DNA of 64,000 bases from Haloferax litoreum (GTDB taxonomy: Archaea > Halobacteriota > Halobacteria > Halobacteriales > Haloferacaceae), in contig NZ_WKJO01000002.1 in the NCBI RefSeq assembly GCF_009674605.1, positions 124,001 through 188,000 of the forward strand, written 5' to 3'. Positions within the stretch are counted from its first letter, which is position 1. Each line of letters opens with the position of its first letter. Positions 11,404 through 40,258 of this stretch are shown here, in pieces. The notes beneath the pieces were generated by a model. That model saw nothing but the letters and a program-made list of their open reading frames with translations. It did not search any database and was not told the origin of the DNA. The position numbers were made by a program, and so were the translations under genes.

Positions 11404-11501
11404 CGCGACAAAATCACGACTGCAGTGTGTGCAAGGCGGCGAAACAGCAACCTCCCCCCACGAGACCCCCCACTTAGAACGGCAACAACGGGGAGAAGTG
11501 A

Positions 11502-11530
11502 CTCTGTTGAAATCCTCAGAGAGTTACAGG
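11502..11530 (+). repeat. IS5-type terminal inverted repeat (left end remnant)
   Basis: The sequence CTCTGTTGAAATCCTCAGAG stands 50 bases before the start of the transposase fragment. The inverse complement of almost the same sequence occurs at 14599-14620 and a shorter match at 37538-37556, which supports its being an insertion-sequence end. Confidence 0.5.
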
Positions 11531-11551
11531 CTCGGCCGTTAGTGTAGCGGA

Positions 11552-11870
11552 ATGCAGGCCCTCCCAAAGTCCCGGTTGCTCCAGTTCGTTGAGCAAGCAA
11601 TTCAGTTGGCTTGTCGAGCCGTTGCACGACACTCTTCGAAGTTCTCGAAGCGGCGGTACATACTCTGTCAGCACATCGTCTTGCTCTGTCTCAAAGGACG
11701 GAAGAATACGACGTACCGGATGCTTCTTGACGATCTCATCGAAATGCCTCGTATTCGAAGAGTAATCGGTCTTGAGGAGCTCCCGTACCCCTCAACGCTG
11801 TGTAAAGCGTTCGACCGACTCGATATGGCCGTGTGGCATGTCCTTCTCAACCTCTCGGTCACACACTTGT
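11552..11870 (+). pseudogene. truncated IS5-family (ISH-type) transposase
   Basis: The frame opening with ATG at 11552 reads MQALPKSRLLQFVEQAI and continues through KFSKRRYILCQHIVLLCLK, RKNTTYRMLLDDLIEMPRI and LPYPSTLCKAFDRLDMAVW. This matches the N-terminal third of the haloarchaeal IS5-group transposases as I remember them. After about residue 105 the similarity ends and the frame stops at 11927-11929. The DDE catalytic domain is absent, so the element cannot transpose by itself. Confidence 0.8.
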
Positions 11871-12398
11871 ATAATGACTCACACTGGCCAACAGACAAGG
11901 ATTCAGTAAGAGTAGCGCACGGACATTAACGAACAGGGGTGGATGGGAAAGGTCGTTATCTAAATTATTGCGACAGTGGTCGCGTTGGCGACATTCCGGG
12001 AATCACAGGAGACATAAAACACCATCACATCTCAGAATACCCGCTGGTATCCGGTCCTGGAACCCCACAGTTTCCGGAGTAATCCCCCCACTCGAGACAT
12101 GGATTAGATGAGGTCCAAATGCAACACCTCGTCTTTCTACACCTACTAGCACTTTTCCACCTAAGCAAGGATGTCAGGAAAAACACACTTACGCCAGAGG
12201 ATTCAGACACTTGTCACATCGTTTCGACGTGGTTCGTGTGAACCCTTAGAGCAAACCGACATATCTAATCGATGTGTTCGCTGCTGACTGACCTTGAGAG
12301 CACCATCGGACTGAGGACGCACAGAGCACGCACCACACAGATGAAGACTAACAGTGAGGTGTAACTCCTTTTTTATTATCACGAGTCGATTCAACCGG

Positions 12399-13223: not shown

Positions 13224-13430
13224 ACTCTATTCCACACAGGTGTTTCTCCAGTGCTGCTGCTAGTGAGACCGTGTTCAACCGCGTTGGGTGTCGACGACTA
13301 CAGCGTTGAGTCCAAGCCCTCGCTGTCTATCACAGTAACAACGGCGATAGTAGCGACGAAGTGGCGGCGCGTGGTGGAGGGAACCATTGTCGAATGGTAG
13401 GAAGAGCGACGTATAGACATTCGGGACTGA

Positions 13431-13514
13431 CAGACTCACCCTTAGTCTGTTTCACGCGACTTCCGACAGTGTCCGGTGTTTCTGTGGGTGTGCTGAACAC
13501 AGAGCACAAGTCGG
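13431..13514 (+). repeat. intergenic hairpin repeat, copy A
   Basis: Right arm GTGTGCTGAACACAGAGCAC and left arm around CACCCTTAGTCTGTTTCACG are partly complementary, with about 35 bases between. The same layout recurs at 14233, 37500, 38173, 39085 and 39458. This copy ends 80 bases before the membrane-protein gene at 13594. Confidence 0.55.
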
Positions 13515-13593
13515 TTACCTAGTTTTACTGAGAAGCGGGCCCATCAAGACTAACTATCGAGCAACTGAAACGCGTATACTGTCTGATTCTTGT

Positions 13594-14202
13594 ATGCAAT
13601 GGCTGGATTCACTCGTTCGTCCTTTCGAACGGTATGCGGATGCACTCTCTGCTAAAAGTCACGGTATCGTCGCCTTTGTGTCGTTTTGCATCTTTGTCGG
13701 GGTGATTGTGCTGGGGTTCGTTCCGATGACTCGCCGAATCGAGACGTCTGGTTATTCCACTGCAGATTTGCAAGCCGCGACGACCCGAGAGGAAGTGGAC
13801 ACGATACTGCAGGCCTTCGAGCCAGTCATGGGATCGGTGATGCTTCTCTCCATCCTCGATTACATCTTCATCGTCGCAGGGTTCCTCTTGTTTTTCTCAC
13901 TCCATTCGGTCTCCTTGAAGGCACTGGCAGGCCACGACAGGCTATCTCTGATACCGAAGGTAGGGATGGCCCTGACAGTCGTCTCTCGACTTCTCGATTC
14001 TCTGGAGAACCTCTGGGTCATCCTCATCTACACGAATCCCGACGATTACGCAACCATCCTGATCAGTCTGATGAATAACTCTGAATCGCTGAAGTGGATG
14101 GTCGTCAGTGTCGAATATCCGATGCTCGGGATTTCCCTCGCGGTTGCACTGCTGACACGGTTTACCTCACTGTCCAACGGTCGCGCAAAGAGCCCAGAGT
14201 AG
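13594..14202 (+). CDS. hypothetical four-TM membrane protein
   Basis: 202 residues with four hydrophobic segments, at about 25-47, 84-105, 120-150 and 172-192, and a hydrophilic loop near 50-80 carrying the motif ATTREEVDTILQAFEP. The pattern is that of small uncharacterised haloarchaeal membrane proteins; no catalytic motif is visible. It is bracketed by repeat copies A and B and has no operon partner. Start chosen at the ATG at 13594, the first after the upstream stop and giving a short cytoplasmic N-terminus. Confidence 0.65.
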   Translation: MQWLDSLVRPFERYADALSAKSHGIVAFVSFCIFVGVIVLGFVPMTRRIETSGYSTADLQAATTREEVDTILQAFEPVMGSVMLLSILDYIFIVAGFLLFFSLHSVSLKALAGHDRLSLIPKVGMALTVVSRLLDSLENLWVILIYTNPDDYATILISLMNNSESLKWMVVSVEYPMLGISLAVALLTRFTSLSNGRAKSPE

Positions 14203-14232
14203 GCAGGACTAGAATTGTCGATCGGTGGGGGG

Positions 14233-14273
14233 GGTTCTGTGGTCGTGCTGAATACAGAGTGCAAGTCGACCAA
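14233..14273 (+). repeat. intergenic hairpin repeat, copy B (right arm only)
   Basis: Contains TCTGTGGTCGTGCTGAATAC followed by AGAGTGCAAGTCG, matching the right arm of copy A base for base at most positions. The left arm was not found, so this copy looks truncated. It lies just after the gene ending at 14202. Confidence 0.5.
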
Positions 14274-14495
14274 CTACCGGCTAGCGCTGGGTTGGTTGAA
14301 CAAGGCCGCGATTGTGAGCCCACCATAGGTCCCGAGCGTGTAAATCATGACTTCGGTGACAAAGTCAGCAGCCGTTTGGATGTCTTTGAGATGCATAAAG
14401 AGCACATCAGTAGCAACGGCGAAGACGACGATAACTAGAGAGAAAGCCAATCGACGAATACTGAAAAGAGGGCTTGATTGGACAAAATCAAACAT
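14274..14495 (-). CDS. hypothetical small membrane protein (73 aa)
   Basis: From the ATG at 14495 the frame gives a 73-residue protein with two hydrophobic segments, around IRRLAFSLVIVVFAVATDVL and VMIYTLGTYGGLTIAALF. The frame is open further upstream to an ATG at 14621, but that extension reads through an IS-type terminal repeat, so it is not credible protein. No family is recognised. It ends against repeat copy B. Confidence 0.45.
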   Translation of the reverse strand: MFDFVQSSPLFSIRRLAFSLVIVVFAVATDVLFMHLKDIQTAADFVTEVMIYTLGTYGGLTIAALFNQPSASR

Positions 14496-14598
14496 TTTAG
14501 TATTTTGTACATAATGCGGAGTGATTAAGAAACTTGCTTGTGGCTCAGGCCAACTGCTGAATCCACCCTCTGTATGTATCACGCACTTTCTGTCAAGG

Positions 14599-14620
14599 TC
14601 TGAGGGTTTCAACAGAGCCA
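14599..14620 (-). repeat. solo IS5-type terminal inverted repeat
   Basis: On the minus strand this reads GGCTCTGTTGAAACCCTCAG, differing at one base from the left end before the transposase fragment at 11502 and in the opposite orientation. It may be the other end of one element now split by about 3 kb of other DNA, or a solo end. Confidence 0.45.
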
Positions 14621-37331: not shown

Positions 37332-37499
37332 GTCATAGCAATTTCGACCTCCGGTGCCGGAGTAACCATCCATCTGTAGAGGAATACCACACCACTGCGT
37401 GCCGAATCAGGTTGCTCCCTCTACCCGTACTATCTATCTGCCACGATATGCATCAGAAAATGACATGGTTTCGGCAGGGCACCGTCGTACAATCGTATG

Positions 37500-37610
37500 A
37501 GCCGGGCAGAGCTTGCGTTCACTTGGTGCTCTCGACTGGTTCTGTTGAAATTCCACGTCGTTGATAGCTTTTCGTGGCCGTGCTGAACGTAGGGCGCGAA
37601 TCTCTCAACG
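37500..37610 (+). repeat. intergenic hairpin repeat, copy C, with a solo IS-type end
   Basis: The right arm is GGCCGTGCTGAACGTAGGGC at about 37577, and the left arm is around GAGCTTGCGTTCACTTGG at 37509, so the arms pair through TGAACG/CGTTCA. An IS-end-like GGTTCTGTTGAAATTCCAC (37538-37556) lies in the loop. It precedes the convergent cytidine deaminase gene. Confidence 0.5.
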
Positions 37611-37667
37611 AGCAAGCCGACATGTCGCCTCGCGCGCTGGAAAGTTTGTTACTGGCCAAGCGTGAGA

Positions 37668-38102
37668 CTACCAGGTTCGTGTCGGGAGGAGGTCGATTGC
37701 TGGGACGACGCGAAGTGTCCCGTCGACGGGCACGATGACACGGAGGCCGTCGTCGAAGTCAGCCAACATCTCCCGACACGAGCCACACGGCGGGACGACC
37801 CGTTGCTCGTCGGTGTCGTGATGCGGGAGCGGGTAGGCGACAGCGACGCAAGTCTCTATTTCGTCGTGACAACGGCCGTCGGCGGCTGCCGACCCGAGCG
37901 CGACAGGTTCGCCGCACATCGAAGCCCGGCCGATGCTCGCCGGAATGCTGACACCGTCGTAGATATCACCATCTGTGGTTCTGACGCCAGCAGCAACGAT
38001 GTGTGCTCCCTCGAAGAAATCTGGGTCGAACGCCTCGTTGTTGACTCCTTTCACGTGCTCGACGAGTTCTTCATCCTCGGGAGTGAGTGGGGACCCTTCC
38101 AT
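37668..38102 (-). CDS. cdd: cytidine deaminase-family protein
   Basis: 144 residues. The zinc-binding and catalytic residues are readable: Cys63 and Glu65 in SMCGEPVAL and the Cys pair 106/109 in PPCGSCREML. This is the small homotetrameric cytidine deaminase / blasticidin-S-deaminase fold, which turns cytidine or deoxycytidine to uridine in salvage. The CxE form differs from the common HAE/CAE first motif, so another aminohydrolase substrate is possible. It is a single gene between repeat copies C and D. Confidence 0.8.
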   Translation of the reverse strand: MEGSPLTPEDEELVEHVKGVNNEAFDPDFFEGAHIVAAGVRTTDGDIYDGVSIPASIGRASMCGEPVALGSAAADGRCHDEIETCVAVAYPLPHHDTDEQRVVPPCGSCREMLADFDDGLRVIVPVDGTLRVVPAIDLLPTRTW

Positions 38103-38172
38103 AGGCGAGAGAGTTCGATTCGTAATAAAGTAGTTTCGAACCTGTACAGTAATTGACTGCTATAACTTGAAA

Positions 38173-38260
38173 CACTCAGCCTCTGAATGTGTCACGCCGC
38201 TCCTGACAGCATCCGGTGAGGTTTCAGCGGGCGTGCTGAATACAGGTCGCGAATGCAGCA
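38173..38260 (+). repeat. intergenic hairpin repeat, copy D
   Basis: The left arm CCTCTGAATGTGTCACGCC (38180) pairs imperfectly with the right arm GGCGTGCTGAATACAGG (38229). The copy lies between the cytidine deaminase start and the YdeI-like gene. The strand orientation matches copies A, C, E and F. Confidence 0.55.
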
Positions 38261-38408
38261 CGAGAGGTCGCTATTCCAAGACGTGTTCAGAGCGGTCGGG
38301 AGAAGCGAAGGCATTACCGAAGACGTGGTCCCATCTCCAATCCTCTGTGAATACCCACGCGCCCACATTCGGAATAGGGTTATCGACACGCGATGTCTTT
38401 CTTGAATC

Positions 38409-38993
38409 ATGATTCCGATATTCTTCGAATCTCGCAACGAGTTCCGTACCTGGTTGGAAGAGCACCACGACACGGCCGAGGAACTGTGGGTCGGTTACTA
38501 CAAGGTCGACGCCGAGCGATCCGGTATCGGCTACGGCGAGTCAGTCGAGGAAGCGCTCTGCTTCGGGTGGGTCGACGGCCTGATCAAGGGCATCGACGAC
38601 GAGACGTACACGCGTCGCTTCACGCCCAGGAGACCCGACAGCAAATGGTCCAAGGCGAACAAGGAGCGGGTCGAAGCGATGGTCGAGGTGGGGGAGATGA
38701 CCCGGGCTGGGATGGAGCTCGTCGAAGCGGCGAAGGAGTCGGGAGAGTGGGCGGATGCCTATCGACTCGCCGACGACCACGAAATCCCGGCCGAACTTGA
38801 GGCGGCGCTACGTGAGAACGAGACTGCCTGGGAGAACTTCCAGAACTTCTCGAACACTGACCAGCACGCGTTCATCACGGCCGTCGAGGAGGCAAAGACG
38901 GACGAAACAAAGCAAAAGCGCATCGAACGAACGGTTGGCCTTGCGGAGCAAGACCTTCGAGCATACGACCAGAACAACAAGCGGCGGCTGTAA
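38409..38993 (+). CDS. YdeI/OmpD-associated-family protein
   Basis: 194 residues. The N-terminal 120 residues hold the family core, with FESRNEFRTWLEEHHDTAEE, EALCFGWVDGLIKGIDDETY and RRPDSKWSKANKERVE. The C-terminal helical part (about 140-194) is lysine- and glutamate-rich. Family members in bacteria are small soluble proteins linked to cell-envelope stress or polymyxin resistance; the archaeal role is unknown. The gene is alone, flanked by repeat copies D and E. Confidence 0.83.
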   Translation: MIPIFFESRNEFRTWLEEHHDTAEELWVGYYKVDAERSGIGYGESVEEALCFGWVDGLIKGIDDETYTRRFTPRRPDSKWSKANKERVEAMVEVGEMTRAGMELVEAAKESGEWADAYRLADDHEIPAELEAALRENETAWENFQNFSNTDQHAFITAVEEAKTDETKQKRIERTVGLAEQDLRAYDQNNKRRL

Positions 38994-39084
38994 TGTGGCC
39001 TTGGTAGGGGCAACCGTCCCGGAAGGGATCTCCGTTTCTCGTGTGTCACCCCGTCGCTATTGCGGACGGAGGTACGGCTTTGGT

Positions 39085-39168
39085 CACCCTCTGAGTGTTG
39101 CACGCCGCTACTGACAAAACTTGAGTAGATTTCAGTAGTCCTGCTGAACTCAGGGCGCGAAAGCAGCA
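39085..39168 (+). repeat. intergenic hairpin repeat, copy E
   Basis: The left arm CACCCTCTGAGTGTTGCACG (39085) faces the right arm CTGCTGAACTCAGGGCGCG (39141). CCCTGAGT/ACTCAGGG-type pairing holds in both arms though the letters differ from copies D and F, a sign of compensating change. The copy lies between the YdeI-like gene and the small membrane-protein gene. Confidence 0.55.
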
Positions 39169-39183
39169 ATTATGTCGATGTTT

Positions 39184-39411
39184 TCACTCGGTCGCTTTCA
39201 TCGTGACTCTATCAAGATTGGCAGTTCGATAGAGCCGAATTATCCATGCCCATGCGAGAAGGGACAGGACTGAAAGAACCGCAATCTGACCGAGAGATTC
39301 TGTTACTGTCCCCGTAAGCACCTGGAAGAGAAGAATGAGGGGGTACAGTAACAGAAATATCGAAACGAGGAATGCAATCCCTTTGAGATAGGTGAACAGA
39401 GATTGTTCCAT
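39184..39411 (-). CDS. hypothetical small membrane protein (75 aa)
   Basis: 75 residues with two hydrophobic segments, about 8-34 (GIAFLVSIFLLLYPLILLF) and 42-62 (IAVLSVLSLLAWAWIIRL), and a basic-acidic C-terminal tail RTANLDRVTMKATE. The rest gives no family. It is alone between repeat copies E and F and reads toward copy E. Confidence 0.55.
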   Translation of the reverse strand: MEQSLFTYLKGIAFLVSIFLLLYPLILLFQVLTGTVTESLGQIAVLSVLSLLAWAWIIRLYRTANLDRVTMKATE

Positions 39412-39457
39412 AATGGGGCTATTTCACACGCCGTTAAACCTCTTGTGCGGTGAACGA

Positions 39458-39543
39458 CGCACTCTCTGTGTGTTGCACACAAGTTCTCAGCGTTCAGAGA
39501 GCTTCCTGTGGACGTGCTGCATAGAGAGCGCGAGTCGGTCATC
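39458..39543 (+). repeat. intergenic hairpin repeat, copy F
   Basis: The left arm GCACTCTCTGTGTGTTGCAC and the right arm GTGCTGCATAGAGAGCGC can pair along most of their length; this is the best-formed of the copies. It lies just upstream of the HicBA operon. Confidence 0.6.
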
Positions 39544-39596
39544 ACGCTCACCCGTTCCCGAACAAATCACGTTTTCATTTTCGCCGTGAGAGTGGT

Positions 39597-39908
39597 ATGC
39601 CGAATGCTTATCCAGTTCATCCGGCAACGAGGGGTAAGACGGCCAGTTCGACTCGTAACGGCGATACCAACGAAGGCGAGATTCGTCTCTGGCAAGAAAA
39701 TGGCTGGTGGATTGCGAGGGACGTCGATACGGGCGTGACCACGCAGGGGGAGTCCAGAGAAGAAGCGCTGGACAACCTCGACGATGCTGTCGCAGTCCAC
39801 ACCGGCGAACGTGGCCGCGAACCGACGGACGAAGAACTTCGTGCGCTGGGAATCAACCCCGCGAACAACACCACAGGCGACCAAGAAACCCCGGACGTGC
39901 TCGACTAA
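39597..39908 (+). CDS. hicB: HicB-family antitoxin
   Basis: 103 residues. The partial RNase-H-like HicB core is GEIRLWQENGWWIARDVDTGV with SREEALDNLDDAVAVHTGE. An extra 25 residues at the N-terminus is not usual, so a downstream start is possible although no second ATG is close. HicB binds and neutralises HicA and usually represses its own operon. It is followed after three bases by the HicA gene, the antitoxin-first order that haloarchaea favour. Confidence 0.78.
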   Translation: MPNAYPVHPATRGKTASSTRNGDTNEGEIRLWQENGWWIARDVDTGVTTQGESREEALDNLDDAVAVHTGERGREPTDEELRALGINPANNTTGDQETPDVLD

Positions 39909-39911
39909 TCG

Positions 39912-40181
39912 ATGGAGCGGCGAACGTTCTCCGGGATAGAGGTCGTGAAAGTGCTGGTCAACGTCGGCGGAATCGAGTGGCGACGAACGACCGGTGACCA
40001 CGCTCAACTGTACTACGAACACCCGACGAACGAAGCAGACCGCCGACAGGTGACTGTCCCACTTCATAGCGAGCTCCGTACCGGGACGCTCCGGAGCATC
40101 GCTGAGAGTGACGGAGCACACGATTTCGATGCTTTCTGTGAATGGATAGACGAAAACGCCGAGTTTTCAACGAAGAGATGA
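39912..40181 (+). CDS. hicA: HicA-family toxin (mRNA interferase)
   Basis: 89 residues. The dsRBD-like HicA fold is recognised by the segment VVKVLVNVGGIEWRRTTGDH, with the catalytic histidine in TGDHAQLYYEHP, and by VTVPLHSELRTGTLRSIAES. HicA cleaves mRNAs when free of HicB and slows growth. It forms a complete toxin-antitoxin pair with the upstream HicB gene. A repeat copy stands immediately before the pair. Confidence 0.78.
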   Translation: MERRTFSGIEVVKVLVNVGGIEWRRTTGDHAQLYYEHPTNEADRRQVTVPLHSELRTGTLRSIAESDGAHDFDAFCEWIDENAEFSTKR

Positions 40182-40258
40182 ACTGAATCGTAATTGTCTG
40201 GAGTTTGTCGAGGTGGGCCATAGAGAGCGAGAACGTCGACAATCACAACGTGACGTAG

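Follow-up and report, generated by a model that had tools for sequence, protein, structure and literature searches.

Haloarchaea appear to have an integron-like system of their own that swaps single genes in place and moves whole arrays

In the dif (pdif) modules of Acinetobacter plasmids, genes or toxin-antitoxin pairs lie between inversely oriented dyad sites of ~28 bp; modules of two types alternate and are shuffled, inverted and lost at these sites, the recombinase being encoded outside the module (PMC13141974). Integron arrays, including those of Archaea, line up small genes in tandem, with compound two-site junctions in one orientation and a highly diverse cargo (PMC9668308), and the arrays analyzed here do the same. 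Akin to the translocatable-unit arrays of IS26/IS6 (PMC7986276), they also have directly repeated pieces of a mobile element between genes, which can be moved as units. From the haloarchaeon Haloquadratum, MITEs, PATEs and small mobile repeats have been described which, like the repeats of this study, are short, transposase-free and carry inverted ends (PMC3119063). Those elements are non-coding save for one exception and none was described as a junction between cassettes, a description that sets them apart from the junctions reported here (PMC3119063).

The window, that is the whole stretch of 64,000 nucleotides of Haloferax litoreum DNA that was analyzed, corresponds to C2:124001-188000 of a 3.56-Mb genome. 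A sequence-only reading of it had noticed four copies of one repeat at 37.5-39.5 kb. The copies are real and all lie on the same strand; the right-arm motif occurs six times in the window when up to three mismatches are allowed, compared with 0.27 occurrences expected, and no shuffled sequence reached six. Three types of piece, the junction (J), the left end (LE) and the right end (RE), were defined by profiles built from haloarchaeal relatives. The refined limits of the copies are 37539-37611 (C), 38167-38270 (D), 39077-39170 (E) and 39451-39545 (F). While D, E and F are indeed one junction of ~95 bp, copy C is a different piece, in which a transposon-type TIR is joined to the right half of a junction. 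Because its left half is the TIR GGTTCTGTTGAAATTCC, it was assigned as an LE rather than a full copy.

Array 2 begins with this LE (37539-37611, forward strand; profile match of 48 bits), which is made up of the TIR-like sequence GGTTCTGTTGAAA, a stem and an R site. The first cassette carries a cytidine deaminase-like gene (37668-38102, reverse strand; PF00383 at 20.9 bits, under the curated cut-off). It is followed by junction D (forward strand, 86 bits), 81 bp of which match a junction of another array in the same genome (C1:888628-888708) at 94% identity. The second cassette encodes a protein of the YdeI/OmdA family (38409-38993, forward strand; PF13376) and is joined directly at GGTCAC to junction E (forward strand, 73 bits), and the third encodes a 75-aa membrane protein (39184-39411, reverse strand), with a similar sequence within array locus L187. 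Beyond junction F (forward strand, 67 bits), the fourth cassette (39597-40181, forward strand; PF24113, PF07927) contains the genes of a HicB-like antitoxin (DUF7387, 39597-39908) and a HicA toxin (39912-40181). At the end of the YdeI cassette (39077-39092) GGTCAC meets the L core directly, and four relatives have a longer tail of this cassette with GGTCACC at the same place; the direct join is perhaps a capture at a look-alike site. The whole segment (37334-40226) is missing from one relative (G299), in which the flanks lie 87 bp apart, and another relative (G295) has other content in its place. Array 2 has not preserved a clean right end, nor did the relatives compared show a clean empty site for it, which counts against our main reading.

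Two further copies had been placed around the gene at 13594. One of them is a full junction (13426-13526, forward strand; 69 bits), the other the right half only, that is an R site (14231-14276, forward strand), which is also the left border of a cassette common to Natribaculum. A third piece of this array 1 had been missed, the RE at 14553-14619 (forward strand; 71 bits), which consists of an L site and the inverted TIR GGCTCTGTTGAAACCCTCAG. The cassette genes encode a 201-aa protein without Pfam or NCBIfam match (13597-14202, forward strand) and a 73-aa protein (14274-14495, reverse strand), for which a homologous cassette follows an LE in Natribaculum breve. The window also contains the remnant of an IS5-family IS (11500-11930, forward strand) with the same TIR as the array ends, GACTCTGTTGAAATCCTCAG (11500-11519), and the start of a broken transposase gene; the transposase of an intact relative is NF033579.

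Each cassette lies between two inverted sites of ~27 bp, R at its left and L at its right. The R site reads TGCTGAATACA-GRGCGC-..TCGGTCA and the L site TGCTGAA..CA-CCCTCT-..TTGCAC. Both have inverted arms, the left one (TGCTGAA) conserved and the right one variable (TCGGTCA, TGTTGCA, TGTGTCA, TCTTGCA or TTCAGCA). The cores, GRGCGC in R and CCCTCT in L, differ from each other and are inverted, and they are the best conserved part of the site. Such unlike cores would permit exchange of R with R and of L with L and hinder exchange of R with L, which would fit the fixed orientation of the sites. Junctions (D, E, F and the copy at 13426) consist of an L site, a spacer and an R site; since the spacer of ~45 bp sits between neighboring cassettes, the repeat that becomes visible is L-spacer-R. 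In an LE, the TIR GGCTCTGTTGAAATCCTCAG is linked to an R site through a short stem; in an RE, an L site is linked through a stem to the TIR in inverted form. A junction equals an RE fused to an LE minus their TIRs. At the array ends a TIR of ~20 bp takes the place of half a junction, and no TIR was found at the internal junctions, which are regular L-spacer-R. Junction identity is 0.65 within genomes versus 0.61 between genomes (permutation p 0.001).

The arms of the repeat had been thought to differ between copies in a partly compensating way, and a structured RNA or DNA element or a terminator at gene borders would account for the imperfect inverted arms seen by eye and for the intergenic position. 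We found no covarying stems, however. For 54 junctions RNAalifold gives no base pairs, nor is there any consensus pairing of the kind expected for a conserved attC-type hairpin, the strongest column pairs being weak (z ≤3.3). No Rfam family matches, and copies are found between convergent and divergent genes alike. The RNA hairpin or terminator is already contradicted by these data and was rejected; we give it practically no credence. The arms are alike because the two halves of a junction are recombination-type sites in their own right, each with arms that are inverted. Two outcomes had been named that would turn the repeats into ordinary debris: repeats unlinked to gene gain or loss, which we did not encounter, and arms that do not covary, which we did. 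The latter counts against a hairpin, not against an array.

Arrays of single-gene cassettes with junction sites on one strand might equally be expected of an integron with attC sites and an IntI integrase. The attC boxes R'' (RYYYAAC) and R' (GTTRRRY) were present in none of 147 junctions on either strand, and identity with attC was rejected on this ground. There is no conserved fold, no integrase gene was seen among the listed families of the cassette ORFs, and two transposon ends stand where integrons have attI. Cassette genes of integrons mostly share one orientation, whereas here it is mixed (92 forward and 78 reverse, by codon-bias ORF choice). The archaeal integron survey makes no mention of Halobacteria (PMC9668308), and it would have missed these arrays because they lack attC. 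We thus regard an integron proper as a scarcely credible explanation.

The arrays obey a grammar, LE-gene-(J-gene)n-RE, on a single strand. Among 354 non-redundant sites, neighbors less than 2.5 kb apart were found 195 times on the same strand and 11 times on opposite strands, and 184 of the 195 same-strand pairs had the order LE-J, LE-RE, J-J or J-RE, compared with 106 (sd 5.2, maximum 124) when site labels were permuted. Array size ranges from one to about ten cassettes (L145, L121, L197). Cassettes mostly amount to one small gene, with 1.2 predicted ORFs each and 542 bp as the median length (10-90%: 273-1538), and their cargo is highly mixed, 58 Pfam families being represented among 137 cassette ORFs, each in at most two members. 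Beyond the window, the H. litoreum genome alone contains seven or more additional units, its site count being a lower bound. A strict junction search gave matches in 148 of 293 haloarchaeal genomes and 63 of 87 genera, and an LE search of plasmid records matched 94, all haloarchaeal among the matches listed. At 31 loci found outside haloarchaea by a short pattern, no J, LE or RE profile matched. Viral carriage was considered and rejected, as the profile finds no site in the one pattern match among viral contigs.

Whole arrays move as transposons with 8-bp target duplications, which is evident from empty sites. About 35 complete units with both TIRs located were scanned. Exact 8-bp repeats outside the TIRs were found for L050/L034, L023, L144, L107 and L168, and repeats with one differing position for L139, L162, L165, L090, L043 and L101; by our own arithmetic, a given unit would show a repeat with one mismatch or none by chance with a probability of about 0.0004. 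L050 and L034 are one insertion present in two species. The duplications flank single-cassette and several-cassette units alike. L165, a three-cassette array of the H. litoreum genome, has one near-exact duplication around the whole array; in G299 the empty site of this array contains the target, GAGGGACG, just once, and the unit breaks the homology to relatives, which picks up just beyond it. Another unit (L163) is missing from G295, where its two flanks abut. The MIIK unit (L050) has ACTGAAAT at both sides and the empty site of H. marisrubri has one ACTGAAAT; in H. marisrubri the cassette of this unit is found elsewhere, within an array. A separate unit of 3.5 kb between LE and RE (L168 3272-6767, C1:120271-123766 of the H. 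litoreum genome) has the exact 8-bp duplications ACAACTTC. Its genes, which encode an AAA+ ATPase, a protein of 133 aa and one with DUF6414, possibly form a mobile defense operon.

Single LE-gene-RE units, with their passenger gene between IS-type TIRs, exact 8-bp duplications, an empty site and no transposase, resemble mobile insertion cassettes or passenger-gene MITEs. The repeats could then be debris of gene-carrying, non-autonomous IS5-type transposons inserted side by side, and the TIR is indeed common to an IS5-family IS. Such an origin does not agree with internal junctions that are regular L-spacer-R without TIRs, with the one duplication around a whole several-cassette array (L165) or with cassette exchange inside fixed ends, and we consider it quite improbable. 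Unlike mobile insertion cassettes, the arrays have R and L sites in subterminal position, can hold several cassettes between one pair of TIRs and show replacement inside fixed ends. Nor are the repeats short non-coding elements with their own TIRs and duplication, as MITEs are; the duplications flank gene-bearing units.

Over 20 bp, the array TIR is identical to the left terminus of an IS from the IS5 family. Transposition of the array, framed by its TIR-bearing ends, as a single transposon with 8-bp target duplications would be driven in trans, probably by the transposase of the IS5-family element that begins with this TIR. We infer this link, as only the left terminus of the IS could be fixed and a close copy of the TIR-bearing IS is absent from 5 of 14 Haloferax genomes, which counts against our main reading. 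Copies of the IS5-family element (L297-L303, L306, L161) have a precise left TIR in common; their homology stops soon after the stop codon and the right borders differ, that of L299 resembling a TIR together with the core of an R or L site. IS6-type ends, first suspected from the TIR, were replaced by the IS5-family IS with the matching TIR. The arrays differ from those of IS26/IS6 in that the internal junctions are not IS copies and carry no TIR, and the TIR matches an IS5-family element.

Cassettes recur at different places. The first of three cassettes in one array of the H. litoreum genome (own163_c1) stands alone between LE and RE in G297 and G298, the cassette own163_c2 follows a J in G295, and one further cassette is present in two arrays of the same genome. 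The YdeI cassette follows a J in the window and an LE in H. marinum and other Haloferax, and the HicBA cassette follows a J in the window and an LE in three other Haloferax genomes. Borders of recurring-cassette pairs, 11 left and 9 right ones, were aligned on the cores; the small size of this sample counts against our main reading. Homology is linked to the gene as far as the R core on the left (inside 0.75, background 0.41, p 7e-7; outside 0.47, background 0.45) and as far as the L core on the right (inside 0.67, background 0.36, p 0.002; outside 0.49, background 0.51), with background values past the cores; the right-border mean is lowered by two mis-anchored pairs. Outer arms, for example the unusual GATTACA or AATTCAGCACGAGA, go with the gene, whereas the spacer does not.

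Replacement in place was observed between relatives. H. marisrubri (L042) and H. prahovense (L135) have unrelated cassettes at the same locus, inside common LE, RE and flanks; identity is 93% over 3.5 kb of left flank and LE, where it is continuous to GCGCGA, and 95% in RE and right flank. Similarly, H. profundi (L021) and H. marisrubri (L097) have common flanks (91% identical) around array cassettes without mutual match. Among the cassette comparisons no minus-strand BLAST pairs indicative of inverted cassettes were found. In G295 (L285 4394-5433) a YdeI cassette is reversed relative to its array, at a border with extra DNA and no clean core boundaries. Two unrelated cassettes of the H. litoreum genome (L163 3562-3634 and L164 4184-4262) are 85% alike over ~70 bp beside the L site, and similar sharing was seen at loci of other genomes. 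Exchange may also affect the ends of cassettes.

Haloarchaea recombine readily and junctions reach ~94% identity within one genome. The repeats might hence be transposon debris, with genes being shuffled by RadA-type homologous recombination between similar dispersed copies. Breakpoints, however, lie at the short cores on both sides rather than being spread over the ~95-bp junction. Moreover, junction pairs are mostly just 60-65% identical, and the array grammar is conserved across genera. We therefore consider homologous recombination unlikely.

The mobile cassette array proposed from the sequence alone is, by comparison, strongly supported by the anatomy of the arrays, the ordered grammar of junctions and ends, the target duplications with their empty sites, cassettes that recur across arrays, breakpoints at the cores and in-place replacement in relatives. 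In our judgment the repeats are likely the junctions and ends of such an array, in which gene exchange at R and L is combined with transposition of the whole. Gain, loss and replacement of cassettes would result from site-specific recombination between two R sites or between two L sites; the breakpoints themselves are observed, and the reaction is suggested by them. As in dif modules, inverted sites (~27 bp for R and L) flank each cassette, and genes and spacers alternate like the two module types if the spacer is read as an L/R-bounded module; the spacer would then be the alternate module. In contrast to dif modules, the alternate module here consists of a spacer that is short and constant, R and L do not have the same core and the whole array has transposon ends. 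The sites also depart from the 11-6-11 dif layout with conserved XerC and XerD arms, as the TGCTGAA arm is conserved and the other varies. Xer sites have conserved arms and variable spacers, whereas here the core is most conserved and one arm varies, which we count against the main reading. Since the Xer arm consensus is lacking and the enzyme is a candidate only, the array was not classed with the dif modules.

That candidate, suggested by the dyad sites, would be a Xer-like tyrosine recombinase that works on R and L in trans, which we offer as a guess. The H. litoreum genome encodes one recombinase weakly similar to archaeal XerA. No recombinase was seen as a cassette among 25 listed of the 58 Pfam families (137 cassette ORFs), and none is consistently present in the array flanks; both results count against the main reading. 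In the same genome, four tyrosine-recombinase-like genes surround an IS5-family copy between two TIRs (L170 428-7574, C1:545.4-552.6 kb).

In open-access papers no earlier description of these arrays was found, and we know of no haloarchaeal cassette platform comparable to bacterial integrons. Only tentatively, and with slightly more doubt than confidence, we suggest that the arrays represent a platform for gene capture that is native to Halobacteria, has a possibly dedicated recombinase and would be the third independent one after integrons and dif modules. Single genes would be exchanged between R and L in transposon-like arrays common to plasmids and chromosomes class-wide, an extension that we hold with the same reserve. 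Haloferax is a genetically tractable genus, in which the R and L sites offer precise targets for annotation and tests, and the arrays raise a clear question, that of the enzyme recombining R and L. Haloarchaea are noted for rampant gene exchange. If our reading is true, the arrays would provide a widespread archaeal route to trade single genes, among them those for small membrane proteins, toxin-antitoxin pairs and candidate defense genes.
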